DNA of 43,465 nucleotides, taken from Deltaproteobacteria bacterium. Lineage in GTDB: Bacteria; Desulfobacterota; Deferrisomatia; Deferrisomatales; BM512. Location: positions 1-43,465 of the forward strand of contig PKTT01000029.1 of assembly GCA_002869015.1 (NCBI GenBank). The letters are read 5' to 3'. Of the stretch, positions 714 to 39,285 are shown in pieces. The translations under genes were made by a program, and so were the position numbers. Positions within the stretch are counted from its first letter, which is position 1. The number at the start of each line of letters is the position of its first letter. The notes below the pieces were generated by a model that saw only the letters and a list, made by a program, of their open reading frames with translations, did no database searches and was not told the origin of the DNA.

Positions 714-1148
714 TCACACGGCGTCTCCAAGGCGTTCGATGTTGACGCCCTTTAGAGCCTTCATCGGGCATGCGGTCTCACAAAGGCCGCACGCTACGCA
801 CCTTTCAGGGAAGAACTCTACCTCAAGGGTCTCCGGGTTGACCGCCAAGGCATCGGGGCGGCATACGGCGGTGCATGCTCCGCAGTGTACGCATAGCTCC
901 TCATCGCGCCGAGACTGATCGGCTATTGTCCTGACCGTTACGCCCTCGGATTCGAGAAATTCTATCCCGTTTCGGACAGCCTCCTCATCTCCAGCAAGCT
1001 CAAGGATGAGGCGGCCCTCGCGGCGCGGCAGTATCTTCGCCTCTAGGATATTGAAGATGAGGTCGAAGTTCCTAACCAAGTTGTGGATTATAGGCTTGTA
1101 CATAACCTCCTGATGGAATATCAGGAGGACGTTTTTTGATGTTGCCAT
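714..1148 (-). CDS. NIL domain / 4Fe-4S ferredoxin (sulfide assimilation)
   Basis: A 144-residue two-domain protein. Residues 1 to about 77 form a NIL domain (the ACT-like ligand-binding fold also found in methionine ABC transporters). Residues 80-144 form a bacterial-type ferredoxin with two complete CxxCxxCxxxC sets (C86, C89, C92, C96 and C117, C120, C123, C127), so two [4Fe-4S] clusters are expected. NIL-ferredoxins are genetically linked in methanogens to homocysteine formation from sulfide together with DUF39 proteins. The present order DUF39, UPF0280, NIL-ferredoxin on one strand fits that. The start MATSKNVLL is preferred to a longer frame that runs back through the UPF0280 gene; it lies 19 bases after the UPF0280 stop, with a CGGAG site in the gap. 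Confidence 0.88.
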   Translation of the reverse strand: MATSKNVLLIFHQEVMYKPIIHNLVRNFDLIFNILEAKILPRREGRLILELAGDEEAVRNGIEFLESEGVTVRTIADQSRRDEELCVHCGACTAVCRPDALAVNPETLEVEFFPERCVACGLCETACPMKALKGVNIERLGDAV

Positions 1149-1167
1149 TTTGCTTCGCTCCGCTAGT

Positions 1168-1899
1168 TTACAGCTTCTCAAGTTCCAAGTCGCCCCGGAG
1201 GGCGAGGCGGCCACCCATAATAGCGATGGCTCCGAAGACGCCCTCAACGGAGAGCGCCCAATCAACTCCATCCTCCAATTGCGCCGGCCTCTTTATCCTG
1301 TTGCCAAGCTCTGTAGCAACGGCATCGGCCAGGGCGACGTCATGTGAGAGGACCGTCGCCGCATCCGCACGCCCGTAGCTAAGGCTTGGGCCCACTGTCC
1401 CCGAGGATGTGCACACCCCTATGGGACGCTTTGTCGCGTCCACCTTGAACGCCAGCTTTCCCGAGAAGGGCGAGGTGCCGGCCCAGAGGCCAACGGTTGT
1501 AACACGGCCCGTGTCCAGATATAAATCGCCCCCATTTTCCACCAGCACCCAAGGGGAGTGTTCCCGCATCTTCTTGCCGACATAGCCCGCCACCGCTCCA
1601 GCGACGGCGGCCATTGGCCCAGTACCCGCCAACACTCCGGCCCTGTACATAGAGCGGACCAACGGCGGCGCTTCCTCCCTCTCGCCAAGGGGCGTTAGGG
1701 AGGTTAGAAACTCTGGGCTAAGGGCTATCTCCTCCTCGACGATTTCGCGCGCCTCGCGAATCGCCAGGAGGGCCTCTTTTTTTAGGCTTCGCTCAGCCCT
1801 GATAAAGAGATCGGTCGTCTCAATAGCCGCCCTGAAAGCTTTGCCACCTCCAGCAGAGGGAGCGTAGTCGCGGTAAAAGCGCAGCTCCGCACCATCCAA
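1168..1899 (-). CDS. UPF0280 family protein (COG2122, ApbE-like)
   Basis: A 243-residue member of the UPF0280 family, distantly related to ApbE flavin transferases. Visible family features are the central AGTGPMAAVAGAVA segment, the LVENGGDLYL strand-loop with its ENGGD acid cluster, the VCTSSGTVGPSLSYG turn and the ALADAVATELGNRI helix. The function is not biochemically settled. Comparative genomics and Methanosarcina genetics associate COG2122 with DUF39 and NIL-ferredoxin in sulfide-dependent homocysteine synthesis, and here it sits exactly between those two genes. The start is TTG at 1897-1899, three bases after the DUF39 stop, with GGAGT six bases upstream, so translation is probably coupled. 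Confidence 0.87.
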   Translation of the reverse strand: MDGAELRFYRDYAPSAGGGKAFRAAIETTDLFIRAERSLKKEALLAIREAREIVEEEIALSPEFLTSLTPLGEREEAPPLVRSMYRAGVLAGTGPMAAVAGAVAGYVGKKMREHSPWVLVENGGDLYLDTGRVTTVGLWAGTSPFSGKLAFKVDATKRPIGVCTSSGTVGPSLSYGRADAATVLSHDVALADAVATELGNRIKRPAQLEDGVDWALSVEGVFGAIAIMGGRLALRGDLELEKL

Positions 1900-1902
1900 A
1901 GG

Positions 1903-3084
1903 CTACTCCGGTACCTTGACCCGCTCCGGCGCGGTGGGGAAGAGCTCCTGCGCCGCGCCGAGGGCGAAGGTGCCCTCCGAGATCCAACTCTTTAAAATGT
2001 TGGCTATCTCTCTCGCCCTCACAACGGAGGCTAGCGGCGAGGTGGGGATACGCTTTCCTCTAACCTCGACCGAGCCAGAGAAGAGCTCCTCATAATTTAC
2101 CAGCCCGAGGGGTTCGCCTGTACCCTGCGGGTAGTCGTTGCCATAATCCACGACGGGGCACTGTATCTCACGGTTGGATACACCCGCGTGGTAGGCTACC
2201 TCCTCGTCCAGCACGGGTATCGGAACACCTATGCCTACCATAAGGCTCGTACCGTAACCGGCTAATGACGCGCCCCTAAGGTATCTCTGGTTCATCTGCT
2301 TTAGGTCGCCTGTGACGGTTAAGGTGCCCGCGCCGCCGGTCGGGATTCCCCGCTCATTTCGAGGGGTCAGGGGAGCGTGCTGGGTGCCCGCCCAGCTCAC
2401 AACGCCTGTGCCGCCGCCAAGGAATATCCTCGTACCGATGCCGATTGTGCGGTAGTAGGGGTCGTTCAAGAGGGGGCTTAGCTGCCCCGAGGTCGAGAAG
2501 GTGGCGTTATTCATCCTGGGCCTTAGTATGCCCATGTAAGTATATATTGTCCGGTCGGAGAGGTTGACCGCGCAGTTGTAATTCTGGTATGCGTTTCGCG
2601 GGTTGTGGAGGATGGCGTCGCGAAAATCTGAGAGGGTGAGGGTCTTTGTCAGCCTCCTCGCCGGGTAGCAATCCGTTCCGTAGGAGGTGGCGGTGAGGGT
2701 AACCTCCTTGCCTGCGACGAGGTCTTCTATTACATGCCCGCCGCCGTAGGTGAAGGCGCCCGGATGCACAGCGTTTAGCGGATCCCCCTCGCGCACCTGG
2801 GTGGCGCCCATGTAGCAGTCCACCGCGGCAATGCCCGCATATGCCTCAACCTCATTTATAAATACCTTGGAGGCTTTCATCTTGGGGGAGGCGTGGCCGA
2901 AGTTTAAAAAGGCCCCTGAGGAGCACATAGTGCCAAAGGTGCCTGTTGTAACGACGTCTACTTTTTTCGCTGCGCCTTTAGGACCCTCCGAGGCCACAAT
3001 GTCAATCATCTCCTCGGCGGTTACGACGACGCATTTCCCCTCGCGGATACGCGAGTTTATCTCTTCTACGCTTTTGGTGCTCAA
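1903..3084 (-). CDS. DUF39 homocysteine biosynthesis protein (COG1900)
   Basis: A 393-residue DUF39 protein and the first gene of the sulfur operon. Family features include VVTTGTFGTMCSSGAF near residues 45-60, the GGGHVIEDLVAGKEV segment, the conserved TSYGTDCYP around C139 and the C-terminal GTGVVSWAGTQHAP region. In Methanosarcina acetivorans, DUF39 proteins with a NIL-ferredoxin support conversion of aspartate semialdehyde plus sulfide to homocysteine, an alternative to the O-acyl-homoserine route. C54 and C139 are candidate persulfide cysteines, by inference. The C-terminus is only about 45 residues past the last recognisable block, with no CBS pair. The start is TTG at 3082-3084, with GGAGAG six bases before it. 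The upstream leader can form a hairpin (see 3121-3150). Confidence 0.9.
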   Translation of the reverse strand: MSTKSVEEINSRIREGKCVVVTAEEMIDIVASEGPKGAAKKVDVVTTGTFGTMCSSGAFLNFGHASPKMKASKVFINEVEAYAGIAAVDCYMGATQVREGDPLNAVHPGAFTYGGGHVIEDLVAGKEVTLTATSYGTDCYPARRLTKTLTLSDFRDAILHNPRNAYQNYNCAVNLSDRTIYTYMGILRPRMNNATFSTSGQLSPLLNDPYYRTIGIGTRIFLGGGTGVVSWAGTQHAPLTPRNERGIPTGGAGTLTVTGDLKQMNQRYLRGASLAGYGTSLMVGIGVPIPVLDEEVAYHAGVSNREIQCPVVDYGNDYPQGTGEPLGLVNYEELFSGSVEVRGKRIPTSPLASVVRAREIANILKSWISEGTFALGAAQELFPTAPERVKVPE

Positions 3085-21050: not shown

Positions 21051-21081
21051 CCGCCTAACAAGCGGCGTGAAAGGCAATGAG

Positions 21082-22152
21082 ATGGAGAAAGAGTTTATTC
21101 CAAAATGGATAGCGTGGGAGTCGACGCGCCGCTGCAACCTTGAGTGCGTCCACTGCCGCTGCTCCTCCGACATGTCCGCCGCAGAGGGTGACCTCTCGAC
21201 CGAAGAGGCAAAGACCCTCATTGATGACATCTGCGAGCTCTCCACCCCTGTAATGGTGCTCTCCGGGGGAGAGCCGCTCCTGAGGAAGGATATCTTCGAG
21301 ATCGCCAGGTACGGCACCGAAAAGGGCCTCAGAATGTGCATGGCGACCAACGGCGTCCTCGTCACCGACGAGGTCTGCGAGAAGATGAAGGAGGCCGACA
21401 TAAAGATGGTCTCTCTCTCCCTCGACGGCCCCACGGCGGAGATTCACGACAACTTCCGTCAATCCCCCGGGGCCTTCGATGGGACGCTCCGCGCCGCCGA
21501 GCTCTTTAAAAAGCATGGGATAAAGTTCCTGGTGAACTCCTCTTTCACCAAGCGTAATCAAAGCTCAATCGCCGATACCTTCAAGCTGGCGAAGAGCATC
21601 GGCGCAACCGCCTGGTATATGTTCATGATCGTCCCAACCGGCCGCGGCGAGGACATTATGAGCGAGCTCATCTCCAAAGAGGACTACGAGGAGCTCTTAA
21701 AGTGGCACTATGAGCAGGAGAAGCACGAGGATGAAATCCTGATGCGCCCCACCTGCGCGCCCCACTATTACCGCGTGGTGCCGCAGATGGCGAAGGCGGA
21801 GGGCGTCAAGTTCGAGCGCCGCTCCCTGACCTTCTCCACCGGAGGCGGGAAGGGGTGCATCGCCGCCCAGACCATCTGCCTCATCGACTGCTTCGGCGAC
21901 GTCAAGCCCTGTAGCTACTTTCCCATGAGCGCGGGCAACGTCAAGAAGGAGAAGTTCAAGGATATCTGGGAGAATTCACCCCTCTTTAAAGACCTGCGCA
22001 ACTTCAAGGAGTACAAAGGCAAGTGCGGCTCCTGCGAATTTATAAACGTTTGCGGCGGCTGCCGCGCGCGCGCATACGCCGTTAGCGGCGACTACATGGA
22101 AGAAGAACCCTTTTGCGATTATATCCCCGTGCGCTTGACGCGGGGTAAATAG
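21082..22152 (+). CDS. AhbD-like radical SAM / SPASM-type protein (haem biosynthesis)
   Basis: A 356-residue radical SAM enzyme. The SAM-cluster motif is C18, C22, C25 (CNLECVHC), followed by [11 protein letters not shown]-terminal SPASM-like cysteine set follows (CIAAQTIC..., KPCSYFP, CGSCEF...[16 protein letters not shown]), and the [11 protein letters not shown] motif is shared by NirJ/AhbC/AhbD enzymes. AhbD converts iron-coproporphyrin III to haem in the siroheme-dependent pathway. Assignment to AhbD rather than AhbC or NirJ is by overall resemblance and the haem-gene context. The ATG at 21082 has AAAGG upstream; the in-frame GTG at 21067 does not. Confidence 0.72.
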
Positions 22153-23981: not shown

Positions 23982-26876
23982 ATGCGCATCTTACCAACTA
24001 TCTTCAATAAGCTCTTTTTTCTTATCCTCCTTATCCTCGCTCTTGCCTCTCCATCCCATTCTTCAATTGTAGATATAGTCGATACAAGCGCTTCGCTAGC
24101 GGTAAATAACGGTTTTGTAGACCCGGCGGAATATGCAGGTTGCAGCGATGGAATGGGTAGCGGTTTCGGCAGGCTCATAGGCGACGGGGTAAATGTATGT
24201 GTCGATTCATCAGATGTCGGAAATCTGGTATTTGGAATCACCGAGGGAGGTGCGCCGATACTGTCCAGCGCCATAGTTATTTACATAGACAGTATCCCCG
24301 GTGGTTATAGCGGTACCGATGTGCTGTTGAGCGGCTATACCCCCTGGTATCTTGCAGCCTCCGGCGGCATGCTAACAATGGATTTGCTCTTCGCCCCTGA
24401 ATTCCAAGCGGATTTTGCCGTCGTAATAAAAGACGGCAGGGCTTACCTGATTGAGCTCACCGATCAGGATTATATGACACCATCCATTTTACTTAACCTC
24501 AGCTTTTTTGATGTTACCTTTCCGGGGCCGATGGAGGTAGGGGGCCTTGAGCTAATATCAATCGGTCTGGCCCCCGGTGATACCTTCAAATATATAGTAA
24601 CCGCTTTAAATCTTGATATACCTGTAAGGGCAAACGAGTACCACGGCGTAAGCCCTTTGACCGAAATACCTCCTGATAATACCGAAGCACCCGTGTTTTT
24701 GGCCCCGGGCGATTTCAACACCTTCACTACCTACGCTGCAGATGCCGATAATGACGGGCTCCTCTATGCGCAGGAGGATCTCAACTTAAACGGGGTTATG
24801 GACCTAGGGGAAACTAACCCCAATGACGACGATACCGATGATGATGGCTTACTTGACGGCAGCGAAGATGCCAATGGTGACGGAGTATGGGGTGCAACTG
24901 AAACCGATCCGCTAAATCCCGACACCGACGCAGATGGCCTTATGGACGGATTGGAGGCCGGGTTGTCGCTGCCCGAGGGGAACGATACCGACGCCGCAGT
25001 ATTTATACCCGATGGCGACGGCGGGGTAACTACAACCAACCCAATCGACCCGGACAGCGATGACGACACCCTAAGCGACGGAATGGAAGATGCCAACGCC
25101 AACGGAGTAGTAGATGCCTCTGAAACTGACCCTAACGATCCGGATACCGATGGCGACACTATACTGGACAACCTGGACGCAGACCCGCTTAATCAATACA
25201 TATGTCAGGACCTTGATGCCGACGGGTGTGACGATTGCTCAGAGGTAGGGCTGCCGGTGCCGACAAATGATGGAACGGATACCGACGGTGACGGGGTGTG
25301 CAATTTCAGTGATATAGATGACGACAATGACGGCTGCCCTGACCACGCAGACCCTTATAGCGTTATATGGAGCCCCGATACCGACTATGATGGCTTCGGC
25401 AATGATTGTGATAACGATGACGATAACGACGGCGTCCTGGATGTAAATGACACCTCTCCCTTAAATCCCTTTATCTGCGCTGACGCGGATGCTGATACTT
25501 GCGATGACTGCTCCGTAGCAGTTGATGGTTTCGGCCCACTACCGGACTACAACCCGATCAATGACGGCGTGGACTTTGACAGTGATGGGATGTGCGACAA
25601 TGGGGACCTTGATGACGATGACGATGGGGTCCTTGACCCCCTCGATGTAGCCCCGCTCAATTACTATAGCTGCTCGGATATAGACAACGACAGCTGCGAC
25701 GACTGCTCACAGGGCGTCGGGCAGGCACCGCTGAATGATGGTCTTGACACGGATGGCGACGGTATCTGCGACCTTACCGACAAAGACAACGATAATGACG
25801 GCTACGATGTTCCTGTGGACTGTAATGATTCAAACGCAGCCGTTAACCCAGGCGCCACTGAGATTGTCGGCGACGGCATCGACAATAACTGTAGCGGCAC
25901 CTCTATCTGCTATGCCGATTTGGATCACGATGGTTACCGCAACTTTAGCGCCACCGTGAATTCCACAATTGATGAGAGCTGCGACACGGTAAACGGCGAA
26001 GCAATGGAGTCAGCGCTCATTGACTGCGATGATATGGACGCTATGCAAAATCCCGGCGCTGAGGAAATTATCGGCGACGGGAAGGACAATAACTGCGACG
26101 GTACCTCAATCTGCTATGCAGACAGCGACCGCGATGGGGACCGCCAGCAATCCGGCACCGTTAACTCGACAATAAACGAAAGCTGCGAAACCGTTAGCGG
26201 CGAGGCCCTTTTTGCAGCGCCAATTGATTGTGATGACTTTGACAGTGCCATCTATTCAGGCGCTATCGAGCTTCGCTGCGACGGTGTCGACAACAACTGT
26301 AACGGCACCATCGACGAGGGCAGGGTGGATAATGATGCTGACGGAGTTGATGAGTGCTCTGATTGTAATGACAATGACCCTGATAACTACCCCGGCAATG
26401 TAGAGATTTGCGACGCCAAAGATAATGATTGCGATGCAATTATTGATAACGGCCTCTCCACCGATTCCGACGCGGATGGCTTCTTTACGCCTGACTCATG
26501 CGCTTCACCCGCGACTGACTGCGATGACTCAAATTCATCTATAAATCCCGCGGCTCTAGAAATTATAGGCGATGGAGTTGATTCCAACTGCGACGCGGTG
26601 GAGTATTGCTATCAGGATGGAGACCTGGACGGGTATAGGCTCGATGAGGTCTTCAGAATCTCTCTTGACCTGGACTGCACCGACCCGATGGAAGCGCCTC
26701 TTAGCGCTCCAATAGACTGTAACGATAGTGATGAAGCGATTTCCCCCGCAGCTGAAGAGATATGCGACGGCATCGATAATAACTGCGACGGTAATATCGA
26801 TGAGAACCTCGACTGCTCCGAAAGCTCCGCCGGAGGCGGAAGCGGGGGAGGGTGCTTTATCGACGCCGTAAGGTAG
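23982..26876 (+). CDS. Large secreted calcium/metal-binding repeat protein (TSP3-like and MopE-like repeats)
   Basis: A 964-residue exported protein. Residues 1-27 form a Sec signal (KLFFLILLILALAS...). The next about 225 residues are a beta-rich domain (a choice-of-anchor-like domain is possible). From about residue 253 to 600 there are many thrombospondin type 3-like DxDxDG calcium motifs, with paired cysteines of the form CDDCS. From about 610 to 950 there are repeats of a putative metal-binding motif, C(N/D)D...NPGA.EI..DG.DNNCDG, akin to MopE copper-binding proteins. The C-terminus is a Gly-rich GGGSGGGC followed by FIDAVR. It is probably cell-surface or secreted. The gene is followed by a strong bidirectional terminator. 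Confidence 0.85.
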   Translation: MRILPTIFNKLFFLILLILALASPSHSSIVDIVDTSASLAVNNGFVDPAEYAGCSDGMGSGFGRLIGDGVNVCVDSSDVGNLVFGITEGGAPILSSAIVIYIDSIPGGYSGTDVLLSGYTPWYLAASGGMLTMDLLFAPEFQADFAVVIKDGRAYLIELTDQDYMTPSILLNLSFFDVTFPGPMEVGGLELISIGLAPGDTFKYIVTALNLDIPVRANEYHGVSPLTEIPPDNTEAPVFLAPGDFNTFTTYAADADNDGLLYAQEDLNLNGVMDLGETNPNDDDTDDDGLLDGSEDANGDGVWGATETDPLNPDTDADGLMDGLEAGLSLPEGNDTDAAVFIPDGDGGVTTTNPIDPDSDDDTLSDGMEDANANGVVDASETDPNDPDTDGDTILDNLDADPLNQYICQDLDADGCDDCSEVGLPVPTNDGTDTDGDGVCNFSDIDDDNDGCPDHADPYSVIWSPDTDYDGFGNDCDNDDDNDGVLDVNDTSPLNPFICADADADTCDDCSVAVDGFGPLPDYNPINDGVDFDSDGMCDNGDLDDDDDGVLDPLDVAPLNYYSCSDIDNDSCDDCSQGVGQAPLNDGLDTDGDGICDLTDKDNDNDGYDVPVDCNDSNAAVNPGATEIVGDGIDNNCSGTSICYADLDHDGYRNFSATVNSTIDESCDTVNGEAMESALIDCDDMDAMQNPGAEEIIGDGKDNNCDGTSICYADSDRDGDRQQSGTVNSTINESCETVSGEALFAAPIDCDDFDSAIYSGAIELRCDGVDNNCNGTIDEGRVDNDADGVDECSDCNDNDPDNYPGNVEICDAKDNDCDAIIDNGLSTDSDADGFFTPDSCASPATDCDDSNSSINPAALEIIGDGVDSNCDAVEYCYQDGDLDGYRLDEVFRISLDLDCTDPMEAPLSAPIDCNDSDEAISPAAEEICDGIDNNCDGNIDENLDCSESSAGGGSGGGCFIDAVR

Positions 26877-32550: not shown

Positions 32551-35160
<2,610 letters not shown>

Positions 35161-35227
35161 CTGAAATTACCTCCCAATGGATTAGTTCAAATTTGGTTTC
35201 GATTGAAATATAAGCATGGATTTATCA

Positions 35228-35256
35228 AAGACAAGTTTGGTTTGCTTTGTTAGAAT
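35228..35256 (+). promoter_or_regulatory. Candidate hgcA promoter
   Basis: AAGACA (four of six to TTGACA) and TAGAAT (five of six to TATAAT) are separated by 17 bp, placing a start about 60 bases before hgcA. It lies in the 163-base gap between divergent clpB and hgcA. No ArsR-type palindrome was recognised nearby. A weak call. Confidence 0.35.
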
Positions 35257-35323
35257 CCTCATCCATGGTATTGGCATCAAATTCATTGAAGGTTTATGTG
35301 CAAACCTTTTTTCTGGAGAGGAA

Positions 35324-36514
35324 ATGGTGAAGGAAAGCTCTGAAGAGAAGCAGCTTACACCGCTGGAAGGTGTTGTGGTTCTGGCTGGAGATGAGGAGAG
35401 CTCACCCCTTTCTAAAGAGGGTGGTGATTGCTGCTCGACCTCGCCCTCGCACCGCGATATTCGCGAGCGCGCCGGTATAATGGTATATCCCTTAGTCTCG
35501 GGGTGGCTTGATACACCGGCGGGCGAGGTGCCCAAGGTATCGCCGGTGCTGACTGCTGATGACAAGCGCGGCACGATTTCAATGAGAATCGGCATAGGTC
35601 GTGACAGCTACGCAATTACTCCGGGCCTCTACGCGTTCGGTGAGCCAAATGAGAATTCCCACGTCATCGTCACCTGTAATTACAAGCTCACCTTCGACCA
35701 TCTGCGCTCAACCCTGAGCAAGCTTGACCTATGGGTCGTTGTTCTCGATACGAAGGGGATAAACGTCTGGTGCGCGGCGGGCAAGGGGACCTTCGGCACC
35801 GCCGAGGTCATAAAGCGGGTTAATGAGTCTAGTATAGACAAAGTGGTTAACCACCGAGACCTCATACTGCCCCAGCTGGGCGCGCCGGGAGTTTCCGCCC
35901 AAGAGGTAAAACGAGCCACGGGCTTTAAGGTGCACTACGGTCCGATACGCGCAGAGGATATTACCGCATACCTGGACGCGGGGATGGTAGCCACGCCATC
36001 GATGCGTGAAGCCACATTTACCCTTAAGGAGCGCGCGGTGCTCATCCCCGTCGAGATATCGCTTCTCTTATCGCCGCTAAAGTGGGTGATACCGCTCCTC
36101 TTCATCCTCTCGGGGCTTGGCCCCTCAATCTGGTCACCCTCAGCGGCGGTAACAAGAGGTTTTGCCCTCTTTATGGGGCTCTTCGCGGGGGGGCTGGGCG
36201 GCGCGGTCTTTCTGCCGCTACTTTTGCCCTACCTCTTTTGGCGGGAATTTTCACTTAAGGGGGCAGCGGCGGGAGCAGGGGTCACCCTCATTGGGCTTCT
36301 GCTCTTCGGCGGGGCGTTAAACTGGCTTGAGGCGCTCTCCCTCATAGTTTTGGGAAGCGCGGTGGCCTCCTATGCGGGGATGAACTTTACCGGCACGACA
36401 CCCTTTACTTCGCCGACCTCAGTTGAAAAAGAGATGCGCCGCTGGGTGCCAATACAGATCGGCACAGCCGCCCTCTCCCTCGCAGGGTGGGTTGGCGGCG
36501 CATTCATAGGATAG
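35324..36514 (+). CDS. hgcA: Mercury methylation corrinoid protein HgcA
   Basis: A 396-residue protein with the HgcA architecture: a corrinoid-binding domain, then a membrane domain. The diagnostic cap-helix motif is N147-V-W-C150-A-A-G-K154, in which the Cys is the lower axial cobalt ligand needed for methyl-carbanion transfer to Hg(II). It is followed by GTFGTAEV and the conserved LILPQLGAPGVSAQEV segment. Five hydrophobic helices occupy about 254-394. A vicinal Cys pair (C36-C37) lies in the N-terminal extension. ATG at 35324 was chosen over one 36 codons upstream because GGAG lies five bases before it and the longer start would add an unrelated hydrophobic segment. It is followed by hgcB eight bases later. 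Confidence 0.95.
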   Translation: MVKESSEEKQLTPLEGVVVLAGDEESSPLSKEGGDCCSTSPSHRDIRERAGIMVYPLVSGWLDTPAGEVPKVSPVLTADDKRGTISMRIGIGRDSYAITPGLYAFGEPNENSHVIVTCNYKLTFDHLRSTLSKLDLWVVVLDTKGINVWCAAGKGTFGTAEVIKRVNESSIDKVVNHRDLILPQLGAPGVSAQEVKRATGFKVHYGPIRAEDITAYLDAGMVATPSMREATFTLKERAVLIPVEISLLLSPLKWVIPLLFILSGLGPSIWSPSAAVTRGFALFMGLFAGGLGGAVFLPLLLPYLFWREFSLKGAAAGAGVTLIGLLLFGGALNWLEALSLIVLGSAVASYAGMNFTGTTPFTSPTSVEKEMRRWVPIQIGTAALSLAGWVGGAFIG

Positions 36515-36522
36515 GATATAAG

Positions 36523-36828
36523 ATGAAAGGTTTCGATTACCTAGGTGTAAACACCCTCGAATTCGACGTTGAAAAGTGCGTCGGCTGTGGAATGTGCCTC
36601 ACCGTATGCCCACACGCTGTCTTTACGAGGAGCGATGCGGGCGTAAAGGGCGCCAAGGTAACCCTGGACAAGCCGGCAAAATGCATGGAGTGCGGCGCTT
36701 GCGCTATTAACTGCCCCGTCGCGGCGATCACCGTAAAGCCTGGTGTAGGCTGCGCTTCGGCGATCCTCCACAGCTGGATAACGGGCGAGGAGGCTTCCTG
36801 CGATTGCTCGGGAGGCGGGTGCTGCTGA
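36523..36828 (+). CDS. hgcB: Mercury methylation ferredoxin HgcB
   Basis: A 101-residue 2[4Fe-4S] ferredoxin, the obligate partner of HgcA that re-reduces the cobalt and binds Hg. The two cluster sets are C19, C22, C25, C29 and C54, C57, C60, C64. C77 in GVGC matches the extra conserved HgcB cysteine. The tail has four more (C93, C95, C100, C101, in CDC...CC), where other HgcBs end in a Cys pair. AGGA is six bases before the ATG. The gene is immediately downstream of hgcA, the standard arrangement. Confidence 0.95.
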   Translation: MKGFDYLGVNTLEFDVEKCVGCGMCLTVCPHAVFTRSDAGVKGAKVTLDKPAKCMECGACAINCPVAAITVKPGVGCASAILHSWITGEEASCDCSGGGCC

Positions 36829-36891: not shown

Positions 36892-36915
36892 GGACGCCCC
36901 ACAACCGGAGAGATG

Positions 36916-37308
36916 ATGTTTCCAAGATTATTACTGCTTTTTACTATTATACCGGCAATTGAGCTGTATCTCTTGCTCAGCGTGGGCTCGGTTATCGGCG
37001 CCGGGTACACCTTCCTCATAATTATCGCGACTGGCGTCTTTGGGGCCCATTACGCACGGCAGCAGGGGTTTGACGTGATGGTTCGCCTACAGCGCGCGCA
37101 GCGGGAGGGACGCATGCCCGCCGACGAGATGGTCGACGGGGCCATGCTGCTCCTGGGCGGCGCCCTCCTCATAACTCCCGGCTTCTTAACTGATATCGTT
37201 GGCTTCTCCCTTGTCTTTCCTCCTACGAGAAACGCTTATAAGAGGCGCTTCGCCGAGTGGATGAGAAGAAAGATAGAGGATGGCGATATTGTAGTAAGAC
37301 ACTACTGA
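36916..37308 (+). CDS. fxsA: FxsA family membrane protein
   Basis: A 130-residue inner-membrane protein of the FxsA family (in E. coli its overexpression relieves phage T7 exclusion by F plasmid). Hydrophobic helices cover about residues 4-22, 26-45 and 77-100. The family motifs are IPAIELYLLL at the start, GVFGAHYARQQG, DEMVDGAMLLLGGALLITPGFLTDIVG and the basic C-terminus. The second of two adjacent ATGs (36916) is chosen because GGAG lies five bases upstream. The next gene starts 18 bases after the stop. Confidence 0.87.
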   Translation: MFPRLLLLFTIIPAIELYLLLSVGSVIGAGYTFLIIIATGVFGAHYARQQGFDVMVRLQRAQREGRMPADEMVDGAMLLLGGALLITPGFLTDIVGFSLVFPPTRNAYKRRFAEWMRRKIEDGDIVVRHY

Positions 37309-37326: not shown

Positions 37327-39285
37327 TTGATTGACGCGTCTTCACTCTCCAAAGCCTTTGGTGCGCGGTCGCTCTTCAGCGACGTCAGCCTGCGCATCGA
37401 TAAGGGCGACAGACTGGCCCTTGTAGGCCGAAACGGCTCCGGCAAGACAACCCTTTTAAGGATACTCGCGGGTGAGGAGAACCCCGACACCGGCGAGGTG
37501 AGGGGGCGTCGAGATTCCACGGTGGGGTATCTTCCTCAGGAGATATCCCTGGAGTCGGAGGAGCACCTTCTCATCTTCGTTGAGAACGTGGCGGGTGAGC
37601 TTAAATCCATCCAACTTGAGCTGGAAGATATACATGATAAGCTAGCCTCCGGTGAGGAGGATGCGGCGCTGGTAGAGCGCAGCGGAAACCTCCAATCACG
37701 CTTTGAGGCCCTCGGGGGCTACCGCCTCCGCTCACGGGCGCAGCAGATCCTCTCAGGCCTCGGCTTCAAGGAAGCAGACTTCGCAAAGCCCCTATCCACC
37801 TTCTCCGGCGGATGGCGGATGCGCGCGCTGCTTGGGAGGATTCTCCTCACGGAGCCCGATGTAATACTCCTCGACGAGCCCACCAACCACCTAGACATCG
37901 TCACCCTTGAGTGGCTGGAGAACTTCATAACCTCATCCCGCGCTGGATTCTTGATAGTCTCCCATGACGTATCCTTCCTCGACCGGGTTGTAAATGGCGT
38001 ATTCGCCCTTGAGCGCGGCGGCGCGGTTCGCTCAAAGGGCAACTACACAAAGTATGTCACCGAGCGAGAGGAGAGGCTGCGCCAGCGCCAGGCGGAGTTT
38101 GATCGCAGGCAGCGTAAACGCGCCGAGGAGGAGCGCTTCATCGAACGCTTCCGCGCAAAGAACACCAAGGCGAAGCAGGTCCAATCCCGCATCAAGAAGC
38201 TTGAGCGTGAGGACCCCCTCGTCGCGCCGATGGAGGATAACGCTTCGGCTCCAGCAATACGCTTTCCCCAACCCGAGCGCTCAGGCAAGGATGTTGTGAC
38301 CGTGGAGGGGGTCGAGGCTGGCTATGGCGACCTCATAGTCTACTCCTCCCTAGATTTTACCCTGCACAGGGGTGAGAAGGTCGCCCTCATCGGCCCAAAC
38401 GGAGCGGGAAAGTCCACCCTCCTTAAGACAATGGCGGGGGAGGTCAAGCCGCGCGCGGGGGAGGTGCGCTACGGCCATAATGTCTCCATAGGTTACTTTT
38501 CCCAGCATCAGATGGAGCTGTTAAACCCCAAGCGCACGGTGCTTGAAGAGGTGCTGGCGCTACCCGGCTACCGAAGCGAGGGGGAGGCGAGATCGATACT
38601 GGGGGGCTTCCTGTTCACCGGCGACGACGTTGAAAAGAGGGTCTCGGTGCTCTCCGGCGGTGAGAAGAGCCGCCTTGTCATGGCGCTGCTCCTGACGCAG
38701 CCGGGAAACCTCCTCCTCCTTGACGAGCCCACAAACCACCTCGACATAGACGCCTGCGAGACCCTCAAAAGAGCGCTCATAGCTTATGAGGGGACCGTTG
38801 CCGTCATCACCCACGACCGCGACCTGATAAACCGTGTAGCCACCCGCGTCGTTTATGTGGAGGATGGGGTTTGCACCGAGTACATAGGCAACTACGATGA
38901 TTATCTCCGGGCCAGGGCCCGCCTAGAGGATATGAACGCCGAGGAGGTGGACGCAGCCGGCGTAAAGCGTGTCCATAAGGGCAAAGAGGCCAGGCGTGAA
39001 GCGGCGAAGGCGAGGGAGGAGTTTGCCAAAAAGACCAAAGCGCTCAGAAAAAAGGTGGAGAAGTATGAGGATGAGCTATCCTCTAGGGAGGAGCGCAAGG
39101 CCGAGATCGAAAAGCTGCTTGCGGACCCCGAGGTGTATTCGGACCCCGTGAGGGGGAGGGAGCTTGGTCGGGAAAGGCAGTACATTATAGATGAACTTGA
39201 GATAGCAACTTCAATGTGGGAGGAGGCAGCCCTCGAACTTGAGGAGCTTGAGCTCTCCTTCAAGGGCGAAATGGAGAGGGGTTGA
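37327..39285 (+). CDS. ABC-F family ATPase
   Basis: A 652-residue soluble protein with two ABC domains and no membrane part, as in ribosome-associated ABC-F factors (Uup/YheS/YdiF-like). The first nucleotide site has GRNGSGKTT, FSGGWRMRALLGRILL and DEPTNHLDIVTLEWLE. The second has GPNGAGKST, LSGGEKSRLVMALLL and DEPTNHLDIDACETL. The interdomain linker contains a basic helix (REERLRQRQAEFDRRQRKRAEEERF). A C-terminal coiled coil (about 540-645) is present. Such proteins act at the ribosomal E site. The start is TTG at 37327, with a weak upstream site. It overlaps the next gene by four bases. Confidence 0.93.
   Translation: MIDASSLSKAFGARSLFSDVSLRIDKGDRLALVGRNGSGKTTLLRILAGEENPDTGEVRGRRDSTVGYLPQEISLESEEHLLIFVENVAGELKSIQLELEDIHDKLASGEEDAALVERSGNLQSRFEALGGYRLRSRAQQILSGLGFKEADFAKPLSTFSGGWRMRALLGRILLTEPDVILLDEPTNHLDIVTLEWLENFITSSRAGFLIVSHDVSFLDRVVNGVFALERGGAVRSKGNYTKYVTEREERLRQRQAEFDRRQRKRAEEERFIERFRAKNTKAKQVQSRIKKLEREDPLVAPMEDNASAPAIRFPQPERSGKDVVTVEGVEAGYGDLIVYSSLDFTLHRGEKVALIGPNGAGKSTLLKTMAGEVKPRAGEVRYGHNVSIGYFSQHQMELLNPKRTVLEEVLALPGYRSEGEARSILGGFLFTGDDVEKRVSVLSGGEKSRLVMALLLTQPGNLLLLDEPTNHLDIDACETLKRALIAYEGTVAVITHDRDLINRVATRVVYVEDGVCTEYIGNYDDYLRARARLEDMNAEEVDAAGVKRVHKGKEARREAAKAREEFAKKTKALRKKVEKYEDELSSREERKAEIEKLLADPEVYSDPVRGRELGRERQYIIDELEIATSMWEEAALELEELELSFKGEMERG

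Follow-up and report, generated by a model that had tools for sequence, protein, structure and literature searches.

Methylmercury, the product of HgcAB, is a neurotoxin that accumulates in food webs, and the question raised by the locus described here is whether two adjacent genes in the genome of an uncultured deltaproteobacterium (GenBank assembly GCA_002869015.1; GTDB phylum Desulfobacterota, class Deferrisomatia) encode the enzyme that makes it. A preliminary description of the window, by which we mean the whole stretch of DNA analysed (43,465 nucleotides of contig PKTT01000029.1), had assigned positions 35324-36828 to an hgcA-hgcB pair and ranked it as the most important item there. The assignment holds: the pair is intact, its coordinates, motif and cysteine numbering had all been given correctly, and by analogy with Pseudodesulfovibrio mercurii ND132 we consider it very probable that it is a functional HgcAB mercury methyltransferase. 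The ranking was overstated as regards novelty, since by 2020 the count of putative methylators already stood at nearly 1,000, spread over 30 phyla (PMC7438021). As an example of its type the host's hgcAB is solid but ordinary, a textbook pair from a little-known lineage; its one under-studied feature is the cysteine-pair tail of HgcA.

Table 1. Coordinates of the hgcAB locus, its neighbours and other genes of the window; residue numbers refer to the proteins.
Feature	Position	Strand	Basis and remarks
Methanogenesis marker 16-like gene set	714..3084	-	adjacent genes
AhbD-like radical SAM gene	21067..22152	+	
Repeat-protein gene	23982..26876	+	964 aa
clpB	32551..35160	-	divergent from hgcA; adjoins hgcA in four family genomes
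clpB-hgcA intergenic region	35161..35323		weak sigma-70-like match at 35228-35256; GGAG before hgcA ATG
hgcA	35324..36514	+	396 aa; ATG 35324 to TAG 36514; NF040863; AlphaFold2; alignment of homologues
HgcA domains			disordered N-terminal tail, 1 to ~40; corrinoid-binding domain, ~58-228; five-helix membrane domain, 234-395
Vicinal pair C36-C37, HgcA N-terminal tail	35429..35434	+	sequence
NVWCAAGK motif	35762..35785	+	residues 147-154; Cys150 = predicted cobalt ligand (ND132 Cys93)
HgcA membrane domain, five long helices	36023..36508	+	AlphaFold2 secondary structure
hgcB	36523..36828	+	101 aa; ATG 36523 to TGA 36828; NF040864; alignment; AlphaFold2
fxsA-family membrane protein	36913..37308	+	downstream of hgcB; NF008528
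ABC-F type ATPase (abcF)	37327..39285	+	downstream neighbour; homologue cut by contig end in G003

Identity of HgcA and HgcB

HgcA matches the NCBIfam equivalog model NF040863 at 408.7 bits (cut-off 275, E = 1.6e-122) and HgcB matches NF040864 at 118.5 bits (cut-off 99, E = 8e-35); Pfam finds only the CdhD corrinoid domain (PF03599) on the former and only ferredoxin domains on the latter. The NVWCAAGK motif that had been read in a corrinoid-domain protein is present and fits the family pattern N(V/I)WC(A/S)(A/G)GK, with its cysteine at residue 150, and N147, V148, W149, C150, A151 and A152 are invariant in an alignment of 65 sequences. In ND132 HgcA, Thr60, Thr66, Val91, Cys93 and Ala153 contact or bind the corrinoid, and the role of cobalt ligand for a cysteine at the Cys93 position comes from the same work (PMC7305189); T117, T123, V148, C150 and A210 of the present protein correspond to these five residues at a constant offset of +57. 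The reading frame is already open from 35216; we take the start to be at 35324, because GGAG lies directly ahead of this ATG and BM525, a genome of the same genus (PKTU01), has an ATG at the homologous place with identical upstream sequence (TGGAGAGGA), and at 35216 there is no conserved start codon.

AlphaFold2 models HgcA (pLDDT 86.3, pTM 0.80) as a corrinoid domain and five long C-terminal helices (residues 234-262, 272-303, 309-328, 334-358 and 364-395), in agreement with the five-helix membrane tail described earlier, and leaves residues 1-35 disordered. Residues 147-157 around Cys150 are mostly coil of intermediate confidence in this cofactor-free model, which does not show the cap helix that the preliminary description had expected at Cys150. 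The top match in a PDB fold search is the HgcAB model 9a0b, itself computed (E 1e-22, 50% identity over 327 columns), and solved CFeSP gamma chains rank after it, at E 6e-6 or weaker.

Because the corrinoid domain is homologous to that of CFeSP gamma, as the Pfam hit and PDB sequence matches indicate, one could suppose that a Wood-Ljungdahl paralogue, CFeSP gamma (AcsC/CdhE), has been mistaken for HgcA. However, it reaches only 79.7 bits with PRK04165 (cut-off 306), whereas it lies well above the cut-off of the HgcA model; it possesses the five-helix membrane domain and a cysteine at the cap position; and the genome encodes one CFeSP gamma-like paralogue separately, next to acetyl-CoA synthase on contig C24. 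In the phylogeny the protein falls within HgcA. The CFeSP identity, which the preliminary description had named as what would overturn its reading, is itself refuted by the PRK04165 score, the membrane domain and the fold match to the HgcAB model, and retains next to no probability.

hgcB starts 8 nt past the hgcA stop codon, immediately downstream, and encodes, as the preliminary description had proposed, a 2[4Fe-4S] ferredoxin with extra tail cysteines. Its 13 cysteines (residues 19, 22, 25, 29, 54, 57, 60, 64, 77, 93, 95, 100 and 101) include two CxxCxxCxxxCP cluster motifs (19-29 and 54-64), the Cys77 of GVGC, which aligns with ND132 Cys73 as had been anticipated, and those of the tail CDCSGGGCC; the motifs, Cys77 and the tail cysteines are conserved in the alignment. 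The AlphaFold2 model is weaker for HgcB (pLDDT 73.4) than for HgcA. In ND132, the HgcB substitution C73A left no methylation and the C94A/C95A double mutation lowered it by 95%, while single tail mutations were without effect (PMC7305189).

One could also envision an HgcAB-like fusion homologue, or another enzyme of the HgcA family that methylates a substrate other than mercury: the HgcAB-like model NF043039 also matches, at 202.5 bits, and, as no selective advantage of hgcAB is established, mercury may be a side substrate of all HgcAB. This score is nevertheless below the NF043039 cut-off of 285, hgcA and hgcB are unfused and HgcB exceeds the cut-off of its own model; the fusion is ruled out by the first two of these observations. 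Moreover, its neighbours in the tree are ordinary HgcA from hosts that resemble Desulfuromonadales and Desulfobacteraceae, and we consider the fusion or other-substrate reading quite improbable. The identification as hgcA-hgcB is thus carried jointly by the equivalog models, the defining residues, the fold match and the phylogeny. Chance is excluded for both matches by the E-values and dN/dS; measured against BM525, the corrinoid and membrane domains of HgcA have dN/dS of 0.024 and 0.031, respectively, and the first 52 residues 0.24 (rough ratios, dS being near saturation), and the gene is, judged from these comparisons, under strong purifying selection.

The locus and its inheritance

The order clpB / hgcA-hgcB / (fxsA) / abcF is common to four genomes of the family: the host (G000), BM525 (G001), a member of another genus (G002), whose flanks match those of the host from hemE to rplI, and G004, in which fxsA was not found. 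The sigma-70-like match is the single promoter consensus match in the clpB-hgcA intergenic region, and shuffled sequences give as many. The HgcA proteins of the family form one clade (support 100/99), and the host probably has its hgcAB by descent from the family's ancestor. In G004, HgcA (locus L109) is on a long branch and the HgcB tail, in the frame read, is without cysteines and ends ...SWISGAPPD, which reflects either an assembly frame error or decay.

At the level of the class, hgcA is found over cut-off in 11 of 12 genomes, as against 46 of 191 outside it (Fisher test, p ~4e-6, the relatives not being independent of one another); a phylum sample that includes some class members gives 52 of 198. 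The sole class genome lacking hgcA, G003, was rejected as evidence of loss: its contig breaks off within the homologue of abcF, just short of the locus, and neither clpB nor fxsA is present, so the locus is unassembled there rather than shown to be lost. Monophyly of HgcA across the class, with one divergent copy from G008 omitted, was rejected (AU p = 0.004), and the gene has therefore probably also been transferred into the class or out of it. G008, a member of the order, has two distinct HgcA genes, on contigs C2 and C5, that belong to different HgcA clades; the C2 copy is arranged hgcA-hgcB-abcF.

The rejected class-wide clade, and the general discordance of HgcAB phylogeny with species trees (PMC7438021), would be compatible with a mobile cassette, a recent acquisition or a binning artefact. 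Yet the core-gene neighbourhood recurs in three other assemblies, including that of the other genus with its extended matching flanks, the family's proteins are monophyletic, and HgcA was found neither in IMG/VR, scanned with two peptide patterns, nor in PLSDB plasmids or phage collections. We allow such an origin only a very slight chance. Misassembly, which the preliminary description had named as a possible source of error, is unlikely, since the arrangement recurs in other assemblies.

The HgcA tail and selenoprotein forms

Approximately 66 residues precede the conserved core of the host's HgcA, and they contain GGDCCSTSP, with the cysteine codons TGC TGC. The pair is kept in BM525 despite the fast-changing tail. 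Cysteine makes up 5.9% of HgcA tails vs 0.9% of the rest of the protein in 102 relatives; counting these and the window together, an adjacent pair occurs in 59 of 103 tails vs 15 in shuffles (maximum 27), and the pairs total 101 vs 19 in shuffles, all tail counts being approximate because tail starts were chosen by rule. ND132 HgcA, judged from the numbering of Cys93, leaves room for fewer than 15 residues at this place and appears too short for a cysteine-pair tail, so published biochemistry would have missed a thiol arm there. A text search of a limited literature collection found no description of a function for the HgcA N-terminal tail.

In 15 HgcA tails the second residue of the pair is encoded by an in-frame TGA (CU; L018, L023, L025, L051, L060, L065, L069, L079, L080, L082, L084, L092, L101, L106 and L108), a distribution that needs at least 7 changes on the tree. 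Several of these genes have a hairpin with a GGU-type loop 15-20 nt after the TGA, and SECIS-like hairpins after the TGA codons of the CU-type relatives have a mean z of about -1, which on thermodynamic grounds alone is not decisive. Automatic gene calls would truncate such proteins at the in-frame TGA. HgcB has a TGA at the Cys77 (GVGC) position in 16 relatives (L006, L007, L009-L015, L020, L027, L030, L033, L036, L043 and L045), which belong to one Desulfobacteraceae-like clade and in none of which is HgcA of the CU form. A published table, after Haft and Gwadz 2023, counts HgcA CU and HgcB GVGU among the selenoproteins (PMC13188914). In-frame selenocysteine at the HgcA tail and HgcB Cys77 positions argues that the tail thiol is functional.

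Genome context of the host

The host genome (2.53 Mb, 95% complete) encodes one HgcA. A single cobamide-synthesis marker, cobQ, is over cut-off, and a search for 16S rRNA gave no hit. No dsrA is over cut-off in it, a weak fragment at a contig edge being the one trace, so the host is probably not a standard sulfate reducer.

Three other parts of the window touch on its metabolism or flanks. The first gene set in Table 1 encodes a ferredoxin-domain protein, a UPF0280-like (PRK04334) protein and a remote relative of methanogenesis marker 16, which at 137.6 bits falls far short of that model's cut-off (364); sets of this kind make homocysteine in methanogens and Desulfovibrio, and would feed methionine and SAM. 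The radical SAM protein is nearest the AhbD heme b synthase (469 bits, cut-off 500), and its gene adjoins hemE, downstream of genes that by eye resemble hemA, hemC and cobA-hemD; a siroheme-dependent heme route is likely in the host. The repeat protein has many DCDD/DCNDxD...NPGAxE repeats, a MopE-like metal-binding pattern, and a weak CglD match; its gene, with kinase, FHA and phosphatase genes up to ~30 kb, is absent from the G002 arrangement.

Discussion

If the host's proteins work as those of ND132 do, on which cofactor binding, SAM as donor and the mercury relay are all modelled, the cytosolic domain of HgcA would hold a cobamide with Cys150 as lower ligand, and the two [4Fe-4S] clusters of HgcB would reduce Co(II) to Co(I). 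SAM, the methyl donor for HgcAB (PMC11588087), would then methylate the cobalt, with Cys150 coordinating the methylcobamide (PMC7305189, PMC11588087), and the methyl group would pass to Hg(II) brought by way of HgcB Cys77 and the tail cysteines. More speculatively, the Cys36-Cys37 tail of HgcA may serve as a second thiol arm, aiding Hg(II) collection or methylmercury release.

To our knowledge, the presence of hgcAB does not guarantee methylation. Nearly every genome examined in this small, poorly known class of Desulfobacterota is hgcA-positive, and surveys may treat its members as likely methylators. We advance tentatively, as possible but somewhat short of an even chance, the combined proposal that the Cys-Cys or Cys-Sec of the disordered HgcA tail, as a second thiol arm, binds Hg(II) or methylmercury and works with the C-terminal cysteines of HgcB, and that HgcAB is near-universal and inherited, rather than patchy, in the class. 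The tail, which seems to be missing from the model enzyme, offers a simple mutational test of mercury's route to HgcAB.

Of known systems, CFeSP gamma shares the homologous corrinoid-binding domain of HgcA but differs in its N-terminal Fe-S domain and in having neither membrane domain nor cysteine at the cap position; in the host it is a separate gene. BM525 HgcAB is much closer, with 85% identity in HgcA and the same gene order from a DegP-like protease gene to rplI, although its HgcA tail has two cysteine pairs where the host has one. The selenoprotein forms HgcA CU and HgcB GVGU occupy the same tail-pair and Cys77 positions, at both of which the host has cysteine codons. Compared with most homologues, the host's HgcB has a small insertion in the RSDAGVKG region. 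The characterised HgcAB of ND132 is alike in its corrinoid and five-helix membrane domains, its cysteine ligand and contact residues, and in a two-cluster HgcB ferredoxin with an extra conserved cysteine and a CC tail; the host differs from it in the additional CDC of its HgcB tail and in the 57 more residues that, together with the Cys-Cys tail they include, precede the cobalt-ligand cysteine of HgcA (150 vs 93).
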